The notes under the pieces were generated by a model that was given only the letters and a program-made list of their open reading frames with translations, made no database searches and was not told the origin of the DNA. A stretch of DNA of 50,924 nucleotides from an uncultured Gemmiger sp. Its GTDB lineage: Bacteria > Bacillota > Clostridia > Oscillospirales > Ruminococcaceae. The stretch is from positions 1-50,924 of the forward strand of contig CASFJO010000096.1 in NCBI GenBank assembly GCA_949295035.1, written 5' to 3'. Position numbers and translations under genes: made by a program. Shown piece after piece: positions 40,651 to 50,754 of the stretch (its first letter is position 1; every line of letters begins with the position of its first letter).

Positions 40651-41370
40651 ATGAGTACACCCCACAACCGCGCTGAGAAAGGCCAGATTGCGTCCACCGT
40701 GCTGATGCCCGGCGATCCTTTGCGCGCCAAATTTATCGCGGAAACCTTTCTGACCGATCCGGTCCTGTTCAACGATGTGCGCGGCATGCTGGGCTTTACC
40801 GGCACCTATCAGGGAAAGCGGGTCAGCGTGATGGGCAGCGGTATGGGCATGCCCAGCATCGGCATTTATTCCTATGAACTGTATTCCCAGTATGATGTGC
40901 AAAACATTATCCGGATCGGATCGGCGGGTTCCTATACGCCCAAGGCGGCTCTTTTTGACGTGGTGCTGGCCACCGGGGCCTATTCGGAAAGCAGTTTCGC
41001 CCGCACCCAGAACGGCTGTACGGACGATACCATCCTTCCCAGCGAGGCGCTGAATGACCGTCTGCGGGCCAGCGCCAAATCGATCGGGATTCCCATGATC
41101 GAGGGGATCATTCATTCCAGCGACGTTTTTTACCGGCATGACGACAGCAAGAACCCCACCTATTGGGAACGCCTTCGGGACGAAAAGGGCTGTGTAGCGG
41201 TGGAGATGGAGAGTTTTGCGCTGTTTCACACCGCCCGCGTGCTGGGAAAAAACGCGGCCTGCCTGATCACCATTTCGGACAGCTTTGTGGATCCGAAGGT
41301 CACCACCGCGCAAGAGCGGCAGACCAGCTTTACCAATATGATGAAGATCGCGCTGGGGGCCGTGGAATAA
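40651..41370 (+). CDS. deoD: purine-nucleoside phosphorylase, DeoD type
   Basis: DeoD splits purine nucleosides with phosphate into base and (deoxy)ribose 1-phosphate. The 239-residue protein shows VLMPGDPLRAKFIAE, GSGMGMPSIGIYSYEL, RIGSAGS and the substrate-binding VEMESFALF, with the catalytic aspartate in TISDS. The start at 40651 follows AAAGGAGAG. Its stop shares a base with the cdd start, so the two are translationally coupled. It opens the nucleoside salvage region. Confidence 0.96.
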   Translation: MSTPHNRAEKGQIASTVLMPGDPLRAKFIAETFLTDPVLFNDVRGMLGFTGTYQGKRVSVMGSGMGMPSIGIYSYELYSQYDVQNIIRIGSAGSYTPKAALFDVVLATGAYSESSFARTQNGCTDDTILPSEALNDRLRASAKSIGIPMIEGIIHSSDVFYRHDDSKNPTYWERLRDEKGCVAVEMESFALFHTARVLGKNAACLITISDSFVDPKVTTAQERQTSFTNMMKIALGAVE

Positions 41371-41780
41371 TGGAGTATAAAGAACTGGTGCGGATCGCCA
41401 TTGCCGCGCGCGAAAACGCCTACACGCCCTATTCGCATTTCAAGGTAGGGGCGGCGCTGCTGGCCAGGGATGGCCGTGTTTTCACCGGCTGCAACATTGA
41501 ATGTGCCAGTTACAGTCCCACCAATTGCGCCGAACGTACTGCTTTGTTCAAGGCTGTCAGCGAGGGAGTAAGGGAGTTTTCCGCCCTGGCTGTACTGGGC
41601 TGGAAGGAAGGAGAAGTCTGTACGGAGTTTGCCTCGCCCTGCGGCGTATGCCGGCAGATGCTGTATGAGTTCTGCGGGCCGGATTTACCGGTGATCATGG
41701 CGAAAAACGAAGAAGAGATGCAGGTCATGACATTGGGCGAGTTGCTTCCGATGGGCTTTGGCCCCGCCAACCTGCTCTGA
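41370..41780 (+). CDS. cdd: cytidine deaminase
   Basis: A 136-residue enzyme that converts (deoxy)cytidine to (deoxy)uridine. Zinc ligands are C53 (in TNCAER, with catalytic E55), C91 and C94 (in PCGVC). The short tetrameric form is usual in Gram-positive bacteria. The ATG overlaps the last base of the deoD stop. With deoD and the pyrimidine phosphorylase downstream it feeds nucleosides into pentose phosphate breakdown. A terminator follows. Confidence 0.96.
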   Translation: MEYKELVRIAIAARENAYTPYSHFKVGAALLARDGRVFTGCNIECASYSPTNCAERTALFKAVSEGVREFSALAVLGWKEGEVCTEFASPCGVCRQMLYEFCGPDLPVIMAKNEEEMQVMTLGELLPMGFGPANLL

Positions 41781-41796
41781 CAGGCGGCCTGCGCGG

Positions 41797-41820
41797 GTCA
41801 GAAGCGAAAGTCTGACTTTT
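41797..41820 (+). terminator. intrinsic terminator after cdd
   Basis: GTCAGA (41797-41802) pairs with TCTGAC (41811-41816), followed by TTTT. Confidence 0.6.
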
Positions 41821-41851
41821 GCGCCATACTTGTTAATATTTTGTAACTGGC

Positions 41852-41870
41852 ACAGTTTGTGACAAACTGT
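41852..41870 (+). promoter_or_regulatory. palindromic operator candidate upstream of the BMP lipoprotein gene
   Basis: ACAGTTTGTGACAAACTGT has perfect 8-base arms around TGA. Its last base is the first base of the -35 box, so a bound protein would block RNA polymerase. The regulator is unknown. Confidence 0.5.
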
Positions 41871-41898
41871 TGAAATTAACCGGATAAAAAGCTATACT
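41870..41898 (+). promoter_or_regulatory. promoter for the BMP lipoprotein gene
   Basis: TTGAAA (41870-41875) and TATACT (41893-41898) are separated by 17 bases, 102 bases before the start codon. Confidence 0.75.
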
Positions 41899-41999
41899 TT
41901 TACTGTTACCGCGGTGCGGAATGTATCACACCGCGTTTTCGGCTCCGGCAGGCAGCGCGCCTGTACGGAAAAATCAAACAGGAATAGGAGAGTACAAGC

Positions 42000-43085
42000 A
42001 TGAAAAAGATTATTGCTCTGATTCTGGCTCTTGTTATGGCTCTGTCCCTGGTGGCTTGCGGCGGCACCGGTTCGTCCAATGCGGCAGGCAACTCCCAGAG
42101 CAGCGCCGGCAGCGAGGCTGGCTCTACGGGCGGCGAAGCCCTGACCTCCATCAAGGTCGGCATGGTCACCGACGTGGGCGGCGTCAACGACAAGTCCTTC
42201 AACCAGACTTCCTGGGAAGGCCTGCAGGCTCTGGAAGCCGAGAACTCCAACATTGAGGTCGCCTACCTGGAGTCCAAGACCGATGCGGATTATCAGTCCA
42301 ACATCGAGACCTTCATGGACGAAGGCTATGACCTGATCATCTGCGTGGGGTACATGCTGGCTGACGCCACCCGCGAGGCCGCCGAGGCCAACCCCGATCA
42401 GAAGTTCGCCATCATCGACGACTCCACCATCGACCTGCCCAACGTGGCCTGCCTGATGTTCTCTCAGGCTGAGGCCTCCTACCTGGTGGGCATCGTGGCC
42501 GGCATGATGACCGAGAGCAACACCGTGGGTTATGTGCAGGGCATGGTCTCCGACTCCATGAACCAGTTTGGTTGCGGCTTTATTGCCGGCGTCAAGGCTG
42601 CCAATCCGGATGCTACCGTTCTGCAGTACAACGCCAACAGCTTTGGCGATTCCGCTGCCGGCGGCACCGCTGCCAAGAACATGATCACCAACGGCGCTGA
42701 CGTGATCTTCCACGCGGCGGGCGGCACCGGTAACGGTGTTATCGAGACCTGCAGCAGCGAGGGTGTTTACGCCATCGGCGTGGATACCGACCAGTCCAGC
42801 CTGGCTCCCGAGACCGTGATTACCTCCGCTATGAAGCGTGTGGACATCGCCTCTCAGGATATCTCCCTGGCGGTTCTGAACGGCACCTTTACCCCGGGCG
42901 TGCACCTGTACAGCCTGGAGAACGGCGGCGTGGACCTGGCTCCTACCCGTGACCTGCTGCCCGAGGACGTGATCGCGGCTGTTGAGGACGCCAAGGCGAA
43001 GATTATCGCCGGCGAAGTCACCGTTCCCTCCACTCCGGAGGAACTGGGCGGCGGCCTGTTCACCCTGGCTGAGGAAGCTGCGTAA
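42000..43085 (+). CDS. BMP-family nucleoside-binding lipoprotein
   Basis: A 361-residue secreted substrate-binding lipoprotein. The signal peptide MKKIIALILALVMALSLVAC ends with the lipobox LVAC and C20 is the lipidated cysteine. A Ser/Gly/Ala-rich linker follows, then the BMP fold with VTDVGGVNDKSFNQTSWEGL, a clear family mark. Family members such as PnrA and BmpA/NupN bind nucleosides for an ABC importer. The matching ATPase and permeases lie 2.7 kb downstream on the same strand. It has its own promoter and strong terminator, fitting the higher dose of binding protein. Codon use is strongly biased, suggesting high expression. Confidence 0.93.
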   Translation: MKKIIALILALVMALSLVACGGTGSSNAAGNSQSSAGSEAGSTGGEALTSIKVGMVTDVGGVNDKSFNQTSWEGLQALEAENSNIEVAYLESKTDADYQSNIETFMDEGYDLIICVGYMLADATREAAEANPDQKFAIIDDSTIDLPNVACLMFSQAEASYLVGIVAGMMTESNTVGYVQGMVSDSMNQFGCGFIAGVKAANPDATVLQYNANSFGDSAAGGTAAKNMITNGADVIFHAAGGTGNGVIETCSSEGVYAIGVDTDQSSLAPETVITSAMKRVDIASQDISLAVLNGTFTPGVHLYSLENGGVDLAPTRDLLPEDVIAAVEDAKAKIIAGEVTVPSTPEELGGGLFTLAEEAA

Positions 43086-43114
43086 ACGGCTTTCTTGCCA
43101 AAATCCAATTGCTT

Positions 43115-43154
43115 AAAAGCGTTCCGCATGCCATGGCGTGCGGAACGCTTTTTT
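43115..43154 (+). terminator. strong intrinsic terminator after the BMP gene
   Basis: AAAAGCGTTCCGC (43115-43127) pairs perfectly with GCGGAACGCTTTT (43140-43152), within a run of six T. Confidence 0.9.
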
Positions 43155-43234
43155 CTATCTGCGCCTTTTTTTCGGATTTTGGAAAGAAATATCGTAAAAT
43201 ATACCAGAATTGACAGCGCAATCCACAATTAAAG

Positions 43235-43263
43235 TTGAAATTTCCCGGGTTTTTTAGTACAAT
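43235..43263 (+). promoter_or_regulatory. promoter for yjjI-yjjW
   Basis: TTGAAA (43235-43240) and TACAAT (43258-43263) are 17 bases apart, 48 bases before the yjjI start. Confidence 0.7.
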
Positions 43264-43311
43264 AGAAAAGCCATAACATAGAATTACGCTAAATCGGGAG
43301 GACACAGCCGC

Positions 43312-44853
43312 ATGAGACCCATTTCTATGGAAACCGTTGAAGAGAAGCGCCGCGAGATTTTGGCGACCATTCAGGATCGCACGGCTTCTCATGAACAAAA
43401 AGTCACCTATCTGGCACGTCACGCCGAAAATTTTTTGACGGTCATTGACGAACCGAAAGAATTGGATGAATTGATGCGTTGCCCGCAGGAACAACGCTGC
43501 ATCTGCAACCTGTTCGAGGGGGATGCGCCATACCGGCCCCGTTATATCTGCCCGGACTATCCCAAGTTCCTAAGGCAGGGCAGCGGATTTTTGCAGTTGG
43601 GTGCGCCGCAGGATCTGTGGGAGGCGCTCAACAATCTGCTGATCCTGTACCACAATGTTCCCAGCATCACCAACTATCCGGTTTATATCGGAGATCTGGA
43701 TACCCTGCTGGAGCCTTATGTGGCCAACGTGGATGATGAAACGGCAAAAAAAGCGCTGCGTTTGTTCTTTGTTCAGGTGGACCGCACGATCTTGGACTCT
43801 TTCTGCCATGCCAATGTTGGTCCGGCCGACACACGTGCCGGTCGTCTGATCATGGAAGTCGAGGCGGAACTGGAGGATGCCGTGCCCAATCTCACCATGC
43901 GGGTCAGCGAGGATACGCCGGACGATTTTGTCCTGGCCGGGATTCGTTGCGCGCTGCGCTCCGCCAAACCCAGTTTCGCCAACGATCGGATGTTCCGCAG
44001 CGAGTTGGGAGATAATTATTGCATTGCCAGCTGCTATAACGGTCTGTACAAGGCAGGCGGTTCCTATACGCTTTGCCGCCTGCTGCTGCACGGTATCGCA
44101 AAACGCTCTGCCAACCTGGAGGATTTCAAGAAGAATCAGCTGCCTTTTGTCATGGATGTGATGGCTCGCTATATGGATGCCCGCATTCGGTTCCTGGTGG
44201 AAGAAAGCGGCTTTTTTGAAAGCAATTTCCTGGCTCGCGAAGGGCTTATCCAACGGGAAAACTTTACCGCCATGTTTGGTATGGTGGGCCTGGCTGAGTG
44301 CGTGAACACCCTGCTGGAAAAGGAAGGGCGTGAGGGCCGGTTTGGCCACAGCGCCGAGGCGGATGCGTTGGGCGTGGAGATCATGGAGCAGATCGCGGCA
44401 TTTAATCAGGCGCATCAGGCGCCCTATTGCGAGGCGACCGGCGGACATTATCTGCTGCATGCGCAGGTGGGCATCGACAGTGACAAGGGCAGCAGCCCGG
44501 GGACCCGTATCCCCATCGGTGAGGAGCCGGCGGAACTGGTGGACCATCTGAAAAATATCAATCTGTTCCACAAGTATTTCCCCTCCGGAACGGGGGATAT
44601 CTTCCCGGTAGATCTGACCGTGCACAAAAACCCTAAGTTTGTGCTGGATGTGATCCGCGGCTCGTTCCAGCTGGATATCCGCTATCTGTCCTTCTACAGC
44701 AGCGACAGCGATGTGGTCCGTGTGACGGGATATCTGGTCAAACGGTCTGAGATGGAAAAGCTGGCTGCCGGGCAGAATGTGCGGCAAAACACCACCGGTT
44801 TGGGATTGGGCGCTTCCACCAATTGTAAGGCGCTGAATCGTCGGGTGCGCTGA
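43312..44853 (+). CDS. yjjI: YjjI-family glycyl-radical enzyme
   Basis: A 513-residue glycyl-radical enzyme of the short YjjI type, unlike the 750-850 residue pyruvate formate-lyase types. The radical site is RVTGY near the C-terminus, with G473. C237 and C241 in YCIASCYNG are candidates for the thiyl-radical cysteine. Other segments are NVPSITNYPVYIGDLD and HANVGPADTRAG. The reaction is unknown. The next gene encodes the matching activase. In E. coli yjjI and yjjW lie beside deoCABD, and here they lie among deoD, cdd, nucleoside transporter genes and a pyrimidine phosphorylase, which argues for a role in nucleoside or deoxyribose breakdown. Start at 43312 follows GGGAGG. Confidence 0.92.
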   Translation: MRPISMETVEEKRREILATIQDRTASHEQKVTYLARHAENFLTVIDEPKELDELMRCPQEQRCICNLFEGDAPYRPRYICPDYPKFLRQGSGFLQLGAPQDLWEALNNLLILYHNVPSITNYPVYIGDLDTLLEPYVANVDDETAKKALRLFFVQVDRTILDSFCHANVGPADTRAGRLIMEVEAELEDAVPNLTMRVSEDTPDDFVLAGIRCALRSAKPSFANDRMFRSELGDNYCIASCYNGLYKAGGSYTLCRLLLHGIAKRSANLEDFKKNQLPFVMDVMARYMDARIRFLVEESGFFESNFLAREGLIQRENFTAMFGMVGLAECVNTLLEKEGREGRFGHSAEADALGVEIMEQIAAFNQAHQAPYCEATGGHYLLHAQVGIDSDKGSSPGTRIPIGEEPAELVDHLKNINLFHKYFPSGTGDIFPVDLTVHKNPKFVLDVIRGSFQLDIRYLSFYSSDSDVVRVTGYLVKRSEMEKLAAGQNVRQNTTGLGLGASTNCKALNRRVR

Positions 44854-44854
44854 G

Positions 44855-45694
44855 TTGGAGGCGCTGGTCAATAAGATCATTCCGTTCAGTTCGGTAGACG
44901 GCCCCGGCAATCGAACTGCTGTGTTCTTGCAGGGATGTAATTTCAATTGTCTGTACTGCCATAATCCGGAGACCATTCAACTGTGCCGTGCTTGCGGTGT
45001 GTGCGTGGAAAAATGCCCAACGGGCGCTCTGCGTCTGCAGGGCGGCCAGGTCAAGTATGATCCGTCGGTCTGCGTGCTTTGTGATGCCTGCATCAAAAGC
45101 TGCCCGCACAGCGCATCGCCCCGTGTGCGCCGCATGGCGCCCCAACAGGTCATGGAAGAAGTGGCGCGCAATCAGCCCTTTATCCGCGGTATTACGATAT
45201 CCGGCGGCGAATGTACCCGTCAGAGGGACTTTCTGCTGGAACTGCTTTTATTGGCGCGGCAGGCAGGATTGAATACTTTGCTGGACAGCAATGGAAGTTA
45301 CGATTTTTCTGCGGACGCCGAACTGATGGCGGTCGCTGACGGGGTGATGCTGGATGTTAAAGCGTGGGATTCGGTGCAGCATCAGCGGGTGACCGGACGA
45401 GACAACGCAGCGGTGCTGGCCAATCTCTTCTGGCTGGCACAGGCCGGAAAGCTGGAAGAAGTGCGTACCGTCGTGGTGCCGGAACTTTTTGACGCCGAAC
45501 AAACGGTACGGGAGGTATGCCGGGTGATCGCGCCCTATATCCCCCTGCGGAACACCCGCTATAAGATTATATGTTACCGGCCTTTCGGGGTCCGGCAGGA
45601 ATATCGCGGGCTTACACCACCTTCTGCGGAACAGCTGGCGCAGCTGTGTCAGCTGGCACAAAGCTGCGGAGTGCCCAATGCGGTTGTGGTGTAA
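44855..45694 (+). CDS. yjjW: YjjW-family glycyl-radical enzyme activase
   Basis: This 279-residue radical SAM protein makes the glycyl radical in YjjI. The SAM cluster motif is C28-x3-C32-x2-C35 in GCNFNCLYC, followed by two ferredoxin-type four-cysteine sets (C44, C47, C50, C54 and C73, C76, C79, C83). ITISGGECTRQ and LLDSNG follow. VDGPGNRTAVFLQGC is the usual activase start. The start is TTG at 44855, one base after the yjjI stop, with a weak ribosome site, so translation is probably coupled. The enzyme needs strict anaerobic conditions. Confidence 0.93.
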   Translation: MEALVNKIIPFSSVDGPGNRTAVFLQGCNFNCLYCHNPETIQLCRACGVCVEKCPTGALRLQGGQVKYDPSVCVLCDACIKSCPHSASPRVRRMAPQQVMEEVARNQPFIRGITISGGECTRQRDFLLELLLLARQAGLNTLLDSNGSYDFSADAELMAVADGVMLDVKAWDSVQHQRVTGRDNAAVLANLFWLAQAGKLEEVRTVVVPELFDAEQTVREVCRVIAPYIPLRNTRYKIICYRPFGVRQEYRGLTPPSAEQLAQLCQLAQSCGVPNAVVV

Positions 45695-45795
45695 AACGCA
45701 AACCCGCTGTGGACTGGAATATTTCGCATGAATCTGCCGTGCTCGCCGATGCATGCGGAACAAGATACAAGACAGGCTGCAAAGGAGGCATACTT

Positions 45796-47343
45796 TTGGC
45801 GAAGGAACGACACGTTGACCTTGGCACCACGGTCATCGAAATGCGCAACATCACCAAAAAATTCGGCGATTTCGTGGCAAATGACGGAATCAACCTGAAG
45901 GTGCATAAAGGAGAGGTCCACGCCATTTTGGGCGAAAACGGGGCAGGCAAGAGCACCCTGATGAATCAGCTTTACGGCATGTACCCGCCCACGTCCGGCG
46001 AAATCTTTGTCAACGGCAAAAAGGTCGTGCTGGACAATCCCAAAAAGGCGATCGAAGCGGGCATCGGGATGGTGCATCAGCATTTTATGCTGGTACAGCC
46101 ATTCACCGTTACCGAGAACATCGTGCTGGGAATGGAGCCCTGCAAGGGCATCAGCCTGGATATGGAGACCGCCCGCAAAAACGTGCAGGCGATCTCGGAA
46201 AAATATGGTCTGGAGGTGGATCCGGACGCCCGCATTGAAGACATCTCGGTGGGGATGCAGCAGCGCGTTGAGATCCTGAAAGCGCTGTATCGGGGTGTCG
46301 ATATCCTGATCCTGGACGAGCCTACCTCGTCGCTGACCCCTCAGGAGATCAAAGAACTGATCGAGATCATGTACAGCCTCACGGCGGACGGAAAATCGAT
46401 TATACTGATCACCCATAAACTGAAAGAGATCAAATCTTCGGCGGACTACTGCACCATTATCCGCATGGGAAAATATATCGATACGGTGGATGTGGAGCAG
46501 GTGACCGAAAACGATCTTGCCAGCATGATGGTGGGGCGCAACGTGACCTTCAGTGTGGATAAACCGGAAAAAGAGCCGGGGGAGACCGTATTGAAGGTAA
46601 CGGACCTGCACGCGCTGGATTACCGCAAGCTGGAAGCTCTGCGAGGGCTGAATCTGGAAGTGCGGCGCGGCGAGATCTTGGGCATCGCCGGCATTGATGG
46701 CAATGGTCAGACTGAGCTTGTGGAATGCATTACCGGCCTGCGGCGCACGACCGGTGGCTCTGTCACGGTCAATGGGGTGGAGGTGGCCAATAAGTCGCCC
46801 CGTTTTGGCTTTGAACATGGCGTTTCCAGTATTCCCGCCGACCGCCAAAAACATGGTCTGGTGCTGGAATTTTCGGTTGCCGACAATATGATCCTTCAGA
46901 ATTTTGCGGAAGAACCCTACTCCCATCATGGCTTTTTAGACCAGGCGGCGATCCACAAATTTACTGAAGAAGCTGTAGACAAGTTTGATATTCGTCCGCA
47001 CGATTGCGTGACCAAGCCGGCCGGTACGTTGTCTGGCGGCAACCAGCAAAAGGTCATTATCGCCCGCGAAGTGAACAACGACAAAGACCTGCTGATCGCG
47101 GTGAACCCCACCCGAGGCCTGGACGTAGGCGCGATCGAGTATGTGCACCGGTATATCGTGGAGCAGCGCAATAAGGGAAAAGCCGTGCTTCTGGTCTCCT
47201 TCGAGCTGGATGAGATCATCAGTCTGTCCGACCGGATCGACGTGATCTACGAAGGACACATCACGGGCAGTATGCCGGGCAAGGACGCGGACGAGAACGT
47301 TCTCGGCCTGCTGATGGCAGGGGGAGGTAAGAAGCATGAGTAA
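45796..47343 (+). CDS. nucleoside ABC transporter ATP-binding protein (two ABC domains)
   Basis: A 515-residue cytoplasmic ATPase with two ABC domains in one chain. The first has Walker A GENGAGKST, ISVGMQQRVEILKAL and Walker B LILDEPTSSL. The second has a relaxed Walker A (GIDGNGQTE), signature LSGGNQQK and NPTRGLDVGAIE, as usual for the ribose/nucleoside importer branch (NupO/YufO-like). The start is TTG at 45796, nine bases after AAGGAGG. With the two permeases downstream and the BMP lipoprotein upstream it completes a nucleoside importer. The permease start overlaps its end by eight bases. Confidence 0.93.
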   Translation: MAKERHVDLGTTVIEMRNITKKFGDFVANDGINLKVHKGEVHAILGENGAGKSTLMNQLYGMYPPTSGEIFVNGKKVVLDNPKKAIEAGIGMVHQHFMLVQPFTVTENIVLGMEPCKGISLDMETARKNVQAISEKYGLEVDPDARIEDISVGMQQRVEILKALYRGVDILILDEPTSSLTPQEIKELIEIMYSLTADGKSIILITHKLKEIKSSADYCTIIRMGKYIDTVDVEQVTENDLASMMVGRNVTFSVDKPEKEPGETVLKVTDLHALDYRKLEALRGLNLEVRRGEILGIAGIDGNGQTELVECITGLRRTTGGSVTVNGVEVANKSPRFGFEHGVSSIPADRQKHGLVLEFSVADNMILQNFAEEPYSHHGFLDQAAIHKFTEEAVDKFDIRPHDCVTKPAGTLSGGNQQKVIIAREVNNDKDLLIAVNPTRGLDVGAIEYVHRYIVEQRNKGKAVLLVSFELDEIISLSDRIDVIYEGHITGSMPGKDADENVLGLLMAGGGKKHE

Positions 47344-48409
47344 TGTCAGGAAGGCCCTGGAGAGCAAGTTCGCCATCACGGTTTTTTCGATCGTGATCTC
47401 CTTTGTGGTGGGCGCGTTCTTCCTGGTCATTATGGGCATCAGCCCGATTGAGGCGTATGCCAAACTCTTTTCCAGCGTTTTCAGCACGCCCAAAAACATG
47501 GCCTACTGTGTGGTATATGGCACTCCGCTGATCTTCACCGGTCTGGCGGTAGCCTTTTCCTTTCGTACCGGCGTGTTCAACATCGGCGCGGAAGGCCAGT
47601 TCGTGGTGGGCAGCATGGCAGCCTGTGTGGTGGGCATTCTGGTCCCGGCGCCGGCGATCCTGCTTGTTCCGCTGTGCTTTATTGCCGCGGCGGTCGCCGG
47701 CTGTTTGTGGGGCCTGATCGTGGCATTCCTCAAGGTGAAGTGGGGCATCAATGAAGTGCTTTCCATGATCATGTTCAACTGGATCGCCTACTATTTGTCC
47801 AACTATATCGCCGGGTTCTCCCTGATCCACAGCGACGGCAACGCGGAGGCTACCAAAAACGTACAGGACGCAGCGCGTATCCTGTTCCCGGAATCCTGGC
47901 GCGACGCGCTTTGCCCCTCCGCCAACTGGGGCATTCTGGTGGCTTTGGTCGCTGTTGTGATCGTGTATGTTATTCTGGAAAAAACCACGCTGGGATATCA
48001 ATTGAAAGCGGTGGGCTTTAACCGGCATGCGGCGGAATATGGCGGCATCAATGTAAGCCGCAATATCTATACCGCTATGGCTATTTCCGGCGCGCTGGCC
48101 GGGATCGGCGGCGCGGTACAGTTGCTGGGAATGGGCGCCCGCATTAGCATCTTCACCAGCCAGGAAAGCTACGGCTTCCAAGGTATCAGCGTGGCGCTGA
48201 TCGGCGCCTCCAATCCCATCGGCGTATTCTTTGCCGGCATCTTCTATGGCGCGCTGAAATACGGCGGAAGCAAGCTGAATCTGATCGGCGCTCCTTCGGA
48301 AGTGGTCAACATTATCATGGGCACGGTGGTATTCTTTATCGCCATTTCCCATGTGTTCCGATTCACTCGTACCCGCAAGAACAAGAAGAAAAAGGAGGGG
48401 GCTCAGTAA
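47336..48409 (+). CDS. nucleoside ABC transporter permease (first)
   Basis: A 357-residue membrane protein with about ten hydrophobic helices. FNIGAEGQFVVGSMAACVVG and VLSMIMFNWIAYYLSNYI are typical of the larger permease of nucleoside importers (NupP/YufP-like). The late GISVALIGASNPIGVFFAGIFYG block is the coupling region to the ATPase. The start at 47336 follows GGGGGAGG inside the end of the ATPase gene. Its stop shares a base with the next permease start. Confidence 0.92.
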   Translation: MSNVRKALESKFAITVFSIVISFVVGAFFLVIMGISPIEAYAKLFSSVFSTPKNMAYCVVYGTPLIFTGLAVAFSFRTGVFNIGAEGQFVVGSMAACVVGILVPAPAILLVPLCFIAAAVAGCLWGLIVAFLKVKWGINEVLSMIMFNWIAYYLSNYIAGFSLIHSDGNAEATKNVQDAARILFPESWRDALCPSANWGILVALVAVVIVYVILEKTTLGYQLKAVGFNRHAAEYGGINVSRNIYTAMAISGALAGIGGAVQLLGMGARISIFTSQESYGFQGISVALIGASNPIGVFFAGIFYGALKYGGSKLNLIGAPSEVVNIIMGTVVFFIAISHVFRFTRTRKNKKKKEGAQ

Positions 48410-49356
48410 TGGACACTTTTATCAACGATCTGGGCATCATCCTGTATGCTACGCTGCTGTATACGCCGCCGCTTCTGTTTGCCGCCATGGGCTCCTGCTT
48501 CTCGGAATTGAGTGGCATCGTCAACATCGGCATCGAAGGAATGATGACCATCGGCGCCTTTACTTCCGCCACCGTGGCATACTATACCGGCAATCCGTGG
48601 ATCGGATTTTTGTGCGGCGGTCTGGCCGGCCTTGCTTTCGGTGCGCTGCATGCGCTGGCTACGGTCAATCTGGGCGCGGATCAGACGATTTCCGGCACGG
48701 CTATCAATTTCCTGGCCCCGGGTGTCGCCATCCTGATGGCAAAAGCCCTGTTCAATTCCTCGGATACGGTCCCGCTGGATGCCACTGCCAAGATCCCGCT
48801 TTTGTTTGGTGACTTCTTTACCAGTGGCACGGTTTGGAGCAATTTCTTCAAAAATATCTTCAGCACCTACGCCTCCACCTATCTGGTGTTTATTGTATTG
48901 GTGGTGGTTTGGTTTGTATTCTACAAGACGCGCTATGGTCTTCGTCTGCGTGCTTGCGGCGAACATCCCGCTACCTGCGCAACGCTCGGCATCAGCGTGA
49001 CCCGTACCCGCTTTTCTGCGGTCTGCATTTCCGGCTTTTTGTCTGGTTTGGGCGGTGCTTGCGTGACTATGGCCACCATGAATCAGTTCCGTCCCACATC
49101 GATCGTGGGCCAGGGCTTCATTGCCATTGCGGCCGTAATTTTCGGCAAGTTCCGTCCGCAAGGCGCCATGATCGCTTGCCTGCTGTTTGGTATGTGTTCC
49201 GGGCTTAAGGTCGTGGTTGGTACCAGCAATGCGGCGGTCTCGGCGCAGCTGATCTCGATGATCCCCTACGTGGTCACTGTAGTCGTTCTGATCCTGTTTG
49301 TAGGCAAATCCCGCGTGCCGGCAGCCAATGGGAAGCCCTATATTCAGGCAAAATAA
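48409..49356 (+). CDS. nucleoside ABC transporter permease (second)
   Basis: A 315-residue membrane protein with eight to ten helices, the smaller permease partner (NupQ/YufQ-like). Hallmarks are LSGIVNIGIEGMMTIGAF, the TISGTAINFLAPG stretch and GQGFIAIAAVIFGKFRPQGA. The start overlaps the previous stop, so both permeases should be made in equal amounts. A terminator-like hairpin follows before the pyrimidine phosphorylase gene. Confidence 0.92.
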   Translation: MDTFINDLGIILYATLLYTPPLLFAAMGSCFSELSGIVNIGIEGMMTIGAFTSATVAYYTGNPWIGFLCGGLAGLAFGALHALATVNLGADQTISGTAINFLAPGVAILMAKALFNSSDTVPLDATAKIPLLFGDFFTSGTVWSNFFKNIFSTYASTYLVFIVLVVVWFVFYKTRYGLRLRACGEHPATCATLGISVTRTRFSAVCISGFLSGLGGACVTMATMNQFRPTSIVGQGFIAIAAVIFGKFRPQGAMIACLLFGMCSGLKVVVGTSNAAVSAQLISMIPYVVTVVVLILFVGKSRVPAANGKPYIQAK

Positions 49357-49377
49357 GAAATCCAGTGTCGGATCCCG

Positions 49378-49410
49378 GCCCCCGGACTCCCTCCGGGGGC
49401 TTTGTATTTT
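49378..49410 (+). terminator. terminator-like hairpin between permease and phosphorylase genes
   Basis: GCCCCCGGA (49378-49386) pairs with TCCGGGGGC (49392-49400), followed by TTTGTATTTT. No new promoter is visible before the next gene, so this may be a partial attenuator. Confidence 0.6.
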
Positions 49411-49431
49411 CGTTTAAGGAGGTTTCCCTGT

Positions 49432-50754
49432 ATGAGAATGTTCGATATCATTGCAAAAAAACGCGATGGAGAAACGCTTACCCGCGAAGAATTGCAGTTT
49501 GTTATTGACGGTTATGTATCCGGACAGATCCCGGATTATCAGATGAGCGCTTTACTGATGGCGATCTATCTGCGTGGTATGACCGACCAGGAAACCGCTC
49601 AACTCACAGATGTGATGGCACACTCGGGGGATATGGTGGATCTGTCCGCCATTCATGGCGTCAAGGTGGACAAGCACTCTACCGGTGGTGTGGGCGACAA
49701 GACCACACTGGTCATTACCCCGATCGTGGCGGCCTGCGGCGTGAAGATCGCCAAGATGAGCGGACGCGGCCTGGGACATACCGGCGGTACGGTGGACAAG
49801 ATGGAATCGGTACCCGGTACCCGTACCAGCTTGGACCGGCAGGAGTTTTTTGATCAGGTAAACCGCATCGGCATCAGTGTGATCGGTCAGAGCGGAAATC
49901 TGGCGCCTGCCGATAAAAAAATCTATGCACTGCGGGACGTGACGGCAACCATCGGCTGTGTACCTTTGATCGCCAGCAGTATTATGAGCAAGAAACTCGC
50001 TGCCGGCTCGGACTGTATTTTGTTGGATGTAAAAACCGGAAACGGCGCATTTATGAAAACCTTGGAGGATTCCATCCGCCTGGCGCAGACAATGGTTGCC
50101 ATTGGCACGCATAACGGGCGGAAGGTAGCCGCATTGATTACCGATATGGATACACCGCTTGGATATAACATTGGTAACAGCCTGGAAGTGATGGAATCTG
50201 TGGCGGTGCTGAAAGGGAATGGTCCGGCGGACCTGACGGAAGTCTGCTACCAATTGGCTGCCAATATGCTTTTGCTGGCCGGTAAAGGGACCTTGGCGGA
50301 ATGCCGCAAACTGGCAGAGGAGGCGGTAGCCAGCGGCGCGGCCTACGAAAAACTGAAACAGATGTTTGCCGCTCAGGGCGGAGATGTTTCGGTGCTGGAT
50401 GATCCGGACAAGTTTGCCAAGGCACGATGCTCCCGGGAGATCCGGGCGCAGCAGGGCGGGTGGTTGTATGCCACCAATACCGAAATGATTGGGAATGCCA
50501 GTGTACTGCTGGGAGCCGGGCGAATCAAAAAAGAGGACTCCATTGATTTCGCGGCCGGGATCGTGCTTCATAAAAAAGCGGGGGACAGGGTAGAGCCCGG
50601 CGATCTCTTGGCAACCTTCTACGCGGAGGACGAGGCCAGGTTTGCGCCAGCGGAAGAGATGTACCGAGACGCGCTGACTTTTGGGCAAGAAAAGCCGGTC
50701 CTTCCGGAACTCGTTATGGCCCGCGTGACGGAAGACGGTGTGGAAAGGTTTTGA
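49432..50754 (+). CDS. deoA: pyrimidine-nucleoside (thymidine) phosphorylase
   Basis: A 440-residue enzyme that splits thymidine, deoxyuridine or uridine with phosphate into base and (deoxy)ribose 1-phosphate. VDKHSTGGVGDKTTLV and the family signature SGRGLGHTGGTVDKMES are intact, as is DVKTGNGAFM. Gram-positive members (Pdp) often accept both uridine and thymidine. The start at 49432 follows AAGGAGG at nine bases; an ATG at 49438 is also possible. It completes the salvage set with deoD, cdd and the importer. An IS3-family element begins just after its stop. Confidence 0.95.
   Translation: MRMFDIIAKKRDGETLTREELQFVIDGYVSGQIPDYQMSALLMAIYLRGMTDQETAQLTDVMAHSGDMVDLSAIHGVKVDKHSTGGVGDKTTLVITPIVAACGVKIAKMSGRGLGHTGGTVDKMESVPGTRTSLDRQEFFDQVNRIGISVIGQSGNLAPADKKIYALRDVTATIGCVPLIASSIMSKKLAAGSDCILLDVKTGNGAFMKTLEDSIRLAQTMVAIGTHNGRKVAALITDMDTPLGYNIGNSLEVMESVAVLKGNGPADLTEVCYQLAANMLLLAGKGTLAECRKLAEEAVASGAAYEKLKQMFAAQGGDVSVLDDPDKFAKARCSREIRAQQGGWLYATNTEMIGNASVLLGAGRIKKEDSIDFAAGIVLHKKAGDRVEPGDLLATFYAEDEARFAPAEEMYRDALTFGQEKPVLPELVMARVTEDGVERF

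Follow-up and report, generated by a model that had tools for sequence, protein, structure and literature searches.

A yjjIW glycyl-radical gene pair at a putative nucleoside uptake and breakdown locus of an uncultured Gemmiger sp. and its possible role in anaerobic nucleoside catabolism

Genes and signals of the locus

The window analyzed here is a stretch of 50,924 nucleotides from an uncultured Gemmiger sp. (contig CASFJO010000096.1 of assembly GCA_949295035.1), in which yjjI and yjjW, encoding a glycyl-radical enzyme and its activase, stand among genes that appear to serve the uptake and breakdown of nucleosides. Few glycyl-radical enzymes of Escherichia coli lack an assigned reaction, and YjjI is, to our knowledge, among them. 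All nine genes of the locus lie on the + strand, and their coordinates and family matches agree with the one-strand arrangement of deoD, cdd, lipoprotein, yjjI, yjjW, importer and phosphorylase genes given in an initial annotation of this DNA. The features are as follows:

40651..41370, + strand: deoD, DeoD-type purine-nucleoside phosphorylase (PRK05819, 274 bits, cut-off 230)
41370..41780, + strand: cdd, cytidine deaminase, its start overlapping the deoD stop (TIGR01354, 151.8 bits, cut-off 113.65)
41870..41898, + strand: promoter-like TTGAAA-17-TATACT before bmpA (consensus match only)
42000..43085, + strand: bmpA, PnrA/BMP-family substrate-binding lipoprotein (PF02608, 262.4 bits, cut-off 24.1)
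43115..43152, + strand: terminator- or attenuator-like hairpin of 17 pairs in the bmpA–yjjI gap
43235..43263, + strand: promoter-like TTGAAA-17-TACAAT before yjjI (consensus match only)
43312..44853, + strand: yjjI, glycyl-radical enzyme, starting at ATG 43312 or 43327 (TIGR04040, PF11230)
44855..45694, + strand: yjjW, radical SAM activase with 4Fe-4S ferredoxin-type motifs (TIGR04041, 360.3 bits, cut-off 250.2)
45811..47343, + strand: ATPase of the ATP-binding cassette (ABC) importer, with two ABC domains (Pfam); frame open from 45571, start uncertain
47336..48409, + strand: importer permease 1, BPD_transp_2 (Pfam)
48409..49356, + strand: importer permease 2, BPD_transp_2 (Pfam)
49438..50754, + strand: pyrimidine-nucleoside phosphorylase, frame open from TTG 49402 (PRK06078, 578 bits, cut-off 559)

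The assignment of YjjI is clear, with 679.4 bits against TIGR04040 (cut-off 498.3) over model positions 2-497 of 497 and 724.3 bits against PF11230 (cut-off 23), and the gene for the YjjW activase directly adjoins it at a spacing of 1 bp. The genome (2.64 Mb, 91.8% complete) holds a single yjjI; the closest YjjI relatives found are from Gemmiger and 93% identical, and record titles place YjjI in many Lachnospiraceae and Oscillospiraceae. An importer, phosphorylases and a deaminase on one strand form the layout of a nucleoside catabolic operon. The importer is, to judge from PF02608 and the neighboring genes, probably a nucleoside importer; its top NCBIfam models are subunits of a 'putative B6 transporter', all below cut-off (BMP protein 108 bits, cut-off 400; ATPase 465, cut-off 670; permeases 155 and 174, cut-offs 400 and 465).

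The hairpin and the promoter-like site that precede yjjI mean that bmpA and yjjI do not necessarily share one transcript here. Among 56 loci with the order bmpA-yjjI-yjjW-ABC, two of which share an identical YjjI, the bmpA–yjjI gap carries a hairpin followed by a T run in 40 and a promoter-like site in 12. The yjjW–ABC gap of the same 56 loci has a median of 42 bp, counted to the first possible start codon, with a terminator-like site in three and a promoter-like site in none. Given this short gap, in which such sites are rare or absent, yjjIW looks tied most closely to the importer ATPase.

Neighborhoods of yjjI across genomes

The initial annotation had suggested that a survey of yjjI neighborhoods would be informative, and such a survey was carried out in two even samples, one of 398 genomes across the phylum (25 over the TIGR04040 cut-off) and one of 391 genomes across the class (21 with PF11230 at E<=1e-60), both counts including the window's genome. 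Loci of at most 20 kb, some shortened by contig ends, were taken without the window, giving 23 from the phylum (22 over the cut-off plus one fragment; the hits in genomes G087 and G241 were left out) and 19 from the class. Here, a nucleoside or nucleobase gene was present in 12 of the 42 loci (7/23 and 5/19). For comparison, 57 control windows, each of 20 kb and sited elsewhere in yjjI genomes having long contigs, gave a single case (0/17 and 1/40, the one being a psuG match); the Fisher p of 1e-4 is inflated by related, non-independent rows. Eight of the 12 are BMP importer operons (loci L040-L042, L044, L185, L186, L190 and L192), and the other four have a xanthine phosphoribosyltransferase gene (L045, L047, L050 and, by BLAST only, L191). 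In addition, yjjI was linked to a BMP gene in 9 of 37 genomes, the window's being one of the nine, where 0.49 were expected from hand-taken BMP counts per genome. When linkage was counted once per lineage, four lineages remained (p 0.0016), and all four stay if the window is removed. The link of yjjIW to nucleoside genes is supported and the enrichment is real, although the survey as a whole gives a positive yet mixed picture.

In L045, L047 and L050, which belong to one family, the xanthine phosphoribosyltransferase gene follows yjjW within 20 bp on the same strand and scores over its NCBIfam cut-off. It is a second kind of nucleobase-salvage neighbor.

The window's 80 nearest loci by similarity form a biased set, in which 69 hold nucleoside genes and one further locus on a 4-kb contig (L070) holds the importer ATPase, making 70 linked; their commonest arrangement is bmpA-[yjjIW]-ABC. 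In a tally of 88 loci, made of these 80 and the eight linked BMP loci, the recurring neighbors were the importer ATPase (74), permeases (73), bmpA (69), cdd (36, of which 35 on the strand of yjjI), udp/deoD (33), deoC (27, of which 26), adenosine deaminase (26, of which 25) and deoB (17). Almost all of these neighbors share the strand of yjjI, and one representative each of the Add and DeoC neighbors exceeds its NCBIfam cut-off. A second ABC ATPase family, part of which resembles that of the importer, recurs in 21 of the 88.

The pair is an optional insert, since importer operons exist both with and without it. Two yjjI-less genomes of the same bacterial order as the window (G378 and G665) carry deoB-deoD-bmpA-ABC-perm1-perm2-deoC-cdd-pdp, an operon built from the same gene families and likewise including deo genes, which differs from that of the window in having no yjjIW between bmpA and the ATPase and in placing deoC, cdd and pdp downstream. 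Four further genomes (G048, G359, G416 and G720) have yjjI elsewhere and bmpA-ABC-perm-perm without the cassette.

Mapping the linked label onto a tree of 91 YjjI proteins takes 11 changes, nine of them forced by starred branches, and linked rows occur at five places: the Lachnospiraceae/Oscillospiraceae clade of the window, family f29, L044, L192 and E. coli. The tree was built by a quick method without a mixture model and raised two long-branch warnings, one touching L192. It omits L053, L138, L197, L198, frames shorter than 440 aa and some of the nearest 80 loci (every second one was retained, plus chosen ones), and it scores xanthine phosphoribosyltransferase neighbors as unlinked. Gene orders also differ, with bmpA-yjjIW-ABC, bmpA-ABC-perm-perm-yjjIW (L040) and yjjIW-bmpA-ABC-perm-perm-cdd (L192) all represented.

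The initial annotation had spoken of repeated linkage across phyla. The linkage is indeed repeated; four of the five places are Bacillota lineages and the fifth is E. coli, so that 'across phyla' comes down to these two. The E. coli proteins belong to the same families as those of the window, far over the cut-offs of TIGR04040, TIGR04041 and PF11230, and in both organisms yjjI and yjjW are adjacent and nucleoside genes lie nearby. The identity is about 43%, and the E. coli pair, which does adjoin deoCABD as had been stated, is divergent from it rather than part of one operon and lies outside any importer operon.

Several observations weigh against a general tie to nucleosides. None of the nucleoside genes searched was found in 30 of the 42 even-sample loci, and unlinked loci occur even inside the window's clade. 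Three of the linked loci are only loosely so, with two other genes between permease 2 and yjjI in L041 and L042 and 5.4 kb between the starts of bmpA and yjjI in L044. Single loci from Proteus, Vibrio and Aeromonas have none of these genes either and show no deo gene next to yjjI; even within its own class, therefore, the E. coli arrangement does not hold throughout. Likewise, no nucleoside gene was found in one Haliovirga (Fusobacteriota) locus or in one plasmid locus from a Chloroflexota member. The nucleoside specificity of the importer is itself inferred from sequence.

Across whole genomes, BMP proteins were found in 37 of 37 genomes with yjjI, against 42 of 65 without it at E<=1e-10; a limit of 1e-50, chosen after the table was seen, leaves 30 of the 65. 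DeoC over cut-off was present in 39 of 41 genomes with yjjI against 24 of 39 without; among near relatives, 48 of 50 had it. The control sugar-binding family PF13407 occurred in 30 of 37 genomes with yjjI and in 32 of 43 without, the 43 coming from the same 65. These three comparisons are uncorrected for ancestry.

An alternative, which we regard as a serious although clearly lesser possibility, is that yjjIW is an anaerobically regulated cassette acting on an unrelated substrate and inserted into heavily used operons of fermenting bacteria, its link to nucleoside genes arising from shared regulation or an inherited chance insertion. The 30 unlinked loci speak for it, as do the promoter-like site that yjjI has of its own in the window and the recurrence of a second ABC ATPase family partly unlike that of the importer. 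Within the window's clade, moreover, the linkage may represent one event followed by losses. Regulation in other bacteria points the same way: in PMC3688515, E. coli yjjI stands with + signs in the FNR regulon table, in a block before 'directly repressed' that we read as directly activated, and PMC4287617 describes a CRP peak between yjjI and deoC in enterotoxigenic E. coli. Other papers mark yjjI as FNR-activated (PMC2634741) and list it under cellular respiration (PMC6643234), and yjjI and yjjW of Yersinia intermedia are tabulated in an anaerobic transcriptome study (PMC3792023). These reports fit an anaerobic role and do not point to nucleosides alone. However, chance insertion or shared regulation accounts poorly for linked rows at five places in the tree with differing gene orders, for the small gap to the importer ATPase, and for a genome-wide co-occurrence that is seen with BMP and is slight for PF13407.

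Fold and active site of YjjI

A predicted NrdD-like domain in E. coli YjjI has already been reported, together with a guessed role in nitrogen metabolism, in PMC3228777; among the papers turned up by literature searches on YjjI, YjjW, DUF3029 and glycyl-radical enzymes, none assigns YjjI a substrate in its listing. An AlphaFold model built from the window's YjjI and 54 relatives reached a predicted local distance difference test (pLDDT) score of 83 and a predicted template modeling (pTM) score of 0.85. In a Foldseek search with this model, the top five hits were NrdD structures (TMq 0.62-0.69), the sixth was PflD (TMq 0.66), and NrdD and other glycyl-radical enzymes were mixed thereafter. Profile comparison likewise placed a four-sequence NrdD profile first (99.1%, E 1.3e-18, 421 columns; 99.0% with E. 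coli NrdD added), ahead of a combined PflB/PflD/YbiW profile (96.2%, E 2.6e-9), the two being unequal in size and spread. Single E. coli sequences reversed this order, with YbiW at 85.1% (164 columns), PflB at 57.8%, NrdD at 30.7% and PflD at 0.4%. In Pfam, 14 of 20 diverse YjjI proteins matched NRDD and 12 of 20 matched PFL-like, while the window's own YjjI exceeded the PFL-like cut-off (28.5 bits, cut-off 24.3, at positions 173-238 only) and fell below that of NRDD (19.2 bits, cut-off 26.2). The nearer relative of YjjI, NrdD or pyruvate formate-lyase (PFL), therefore varies with the test, and a firm statement that it is nearest to NrdD is weakened by the single-sequence profiles and the window's Pfam score. 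Since the family tests split, YjjI, a compact member of the glycyl-radical enzymes, is best regarded as a relative of NrdD and PFL alike.

In all 20 diverse YjjI proteins, Arg465, Thr467, Gly468 and Tyr469 of the glycyl-radical loop and Cys236, the sole invariant cysteine, are conserved (residues counted from ATG 43327). In alignments, Cys236 takes the position of the thiyl cysteine in NrdD as well as in PFL. The residues around it differ from those of the known classes. A Ser235-Cys236 pair replaces the Cys418-Cys419 pair of PFL in 20 of 20, Cys418 being, as we take it, the acyl carrier and the other the thiyl cysteine. Asn238, two residues past Cys236 and again in 20 of 20, stands where glycyl-radical dehydratases and lyases of the GDH/CutC type have a glutamate that we presume to be the general base. 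The second cysteine of NrdD (E. coli Cys175, which we assume to be the reducing catalytic residue) falls on Arg70 or on residue 75, depending on the alignment used, and column 75 is a cysteine in 2 of the 20 and in 15 of 55 members, that of the window among them. On these motif grounds (Ser235 and Asn238), and given the assumed residue roles, PFL-type and eliminase-type chemistry were set aside, and the chemistry of YjjI would appear to be none of the three standard types. YjjI is also about 250 residues shorter than PFL. Two arginines, Arg72 and Arg251, are likewise unchanged in all 20. An arginine pair like Arg176 and Arg435 of PFL was considered and not retained; Arg251 aligns with Arg435, and Arg72 aligns with Arg176 in none of the alignments.

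PflD and YbiW share the glycyl-radical fold with YjjI and offer a phosphosugar precedent, their structures having been solved, according to the structure titles, with anhydrohexitol phosphates. PflD ranks sixth by Foldseek and YbiW is the top single-sequence match; unlike them, YjjI has the asparagine two residues past its cysteine, and its profile match to PflD is nil.

The likeness to NrdD raises the alternative that YjjI is a stripped-down NrdD relative working on a nucleoside, ribose-1-phosphate or a nucleobase itself, for example by dehydrating the ribose 2,3-diol in the manner of ribonucleotide reductase without its reductant. The best family profile, the first five structural hits and the 14 Pfam matches favor it, and the xanthine phosphoribosyltransferase gene close behind yjjW in three genomes of another family would suit it. 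Yet the single E. coli NrdD sequence ranks below PflB and YbiW, the window's YjjI clears only the PFL-like cut-off, and PflD follows directly among the structures. Furthermore, no ATP cone or Zn-Cys4 family of Pfam was found in the 20 YjjI proteins, the alignment of YjjI with NrdD begins past NrdD residue ~92, the second cysteine is not conserved, and the genome has its own NrdD. Altogether we hold such an activity to be improbable. More doubtful still is a specific version in which a NrdD-related YjjI would remove or move the 2-oxygen of ribose-1-phosphate or a nucleoside, the ribose carbon leaving via DeoB and DeoC; if true, a ribonucleotide-reductase-like reaction would have been recruited into catabolism. 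YjjI as the ribonucleotide reductase of the cell was dropped in view of the true NrdD in the window's genome. The match of that NrdD (L204/L205, G000:C81:20262-22420) to its model is split between two separate open frames of 792 and 78 aa.

A candidate role in nucleoside breakdown

We give about even weight to the proposal that yjjIW is an optional two-gene cassette for anaerobic nucleoside catabolism, in which the substrate of YjjI would be an anionic compound released by that breakdown, possibly a (deoxy)ribose phosphate. The importer would take up nucleosides, from which Cdd or adenosine deaminase and the phosphorylases would set free (deoxy)ribose-1-phosphate. YjjW would install the glycyl radical on Gly468 of YjjI, and this radical would yield a thiyl radical on Cys236 that abstracts hydrogen from the anionic product. 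That the substrate is anionic is suggested by the arginines conserved throughout, with a pentose phosphate as the most likely choice; Arg72 and Arg251 are the candidate residues for holding it. The outcome would most likely be a radical elimination, rearrangement or C-C cleavage, which is proposed to be new for the superfamily because YjjI has neither the reducing cysteine of NrdD, nor the acyl cysteine of PFL, nor the general-base glutamate of the diol dehydratases, and it would allow fermentation of the sugar moiety in the absence of O2. Anaerobic nucleoside use would gain a radical step if the reaction were confirmed. The locus narrows the search for the YjjI substrate to a small set of metabolites, and the existence of related operons with and without yjjIW offers a genetic test.

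Deoxyribose or an aldehyde derived from it, the examples named in the initial annotation, are possible and are not singled out by these findings, since deoC and deoB recur near yjjI alongside genes for deaminases of cytidine and adenosine and for purine and uridine phosphorylases. A related alternative has YjjI act after DeoC on a C2 or C3 product (acetaldehyde or a triose-derived compound). Nearly every yjjI genome and near relative encodes DeoC, and deoC lies in 27 of the 88 loci, as this alternative would have it; against this, 61 of the 88, some shortened by contig ends, have no deoC in the stretch, and acetaldehyde lacks the negative charge to which the invariant arginines seem to point. 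We therefore consider a C2 or C3 substrate unlikely, if somewhat less so than the NrdD-like activity. The window's genome gave no deoC match; because this genome is incomplete and its 93%-identical relatives G774 and G775 each have a deoC, the gap is probably one of assembly. YjjI as a replacement for DeoC was accordingly dropped, DeoC being so widespread among yjjI genomes.

Variants of the cassette itself were also seen. In L091, L104, L111 and L118, about 2-3 kb splits yjjI from yjjW, with a nucleoside-phosphorylase-like gene inside on the same strand, joined in L091 and L118 by deoB, also on the same strand. One yjjI frame has an internal stop (L077:3864-5390), and another yjjI matches in two pieces (G747; L177/L179, G747:C372). 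A viral scan returned 95 pattern matches and no relative. Finally, YeiL-like regulators of the Crp/Fnr family adjoin one or other gene of the pair at three loci that show no nucleoside link apart from this (L052:9221-9889, L193:5147-5839 and L038:11709-12395), and the same queries matched in 0 of the 57 control windows. E. coli yeiL adjoins rihB and psuTGK, and we take these regulators as a weak additional hint on which the argument does not rely.

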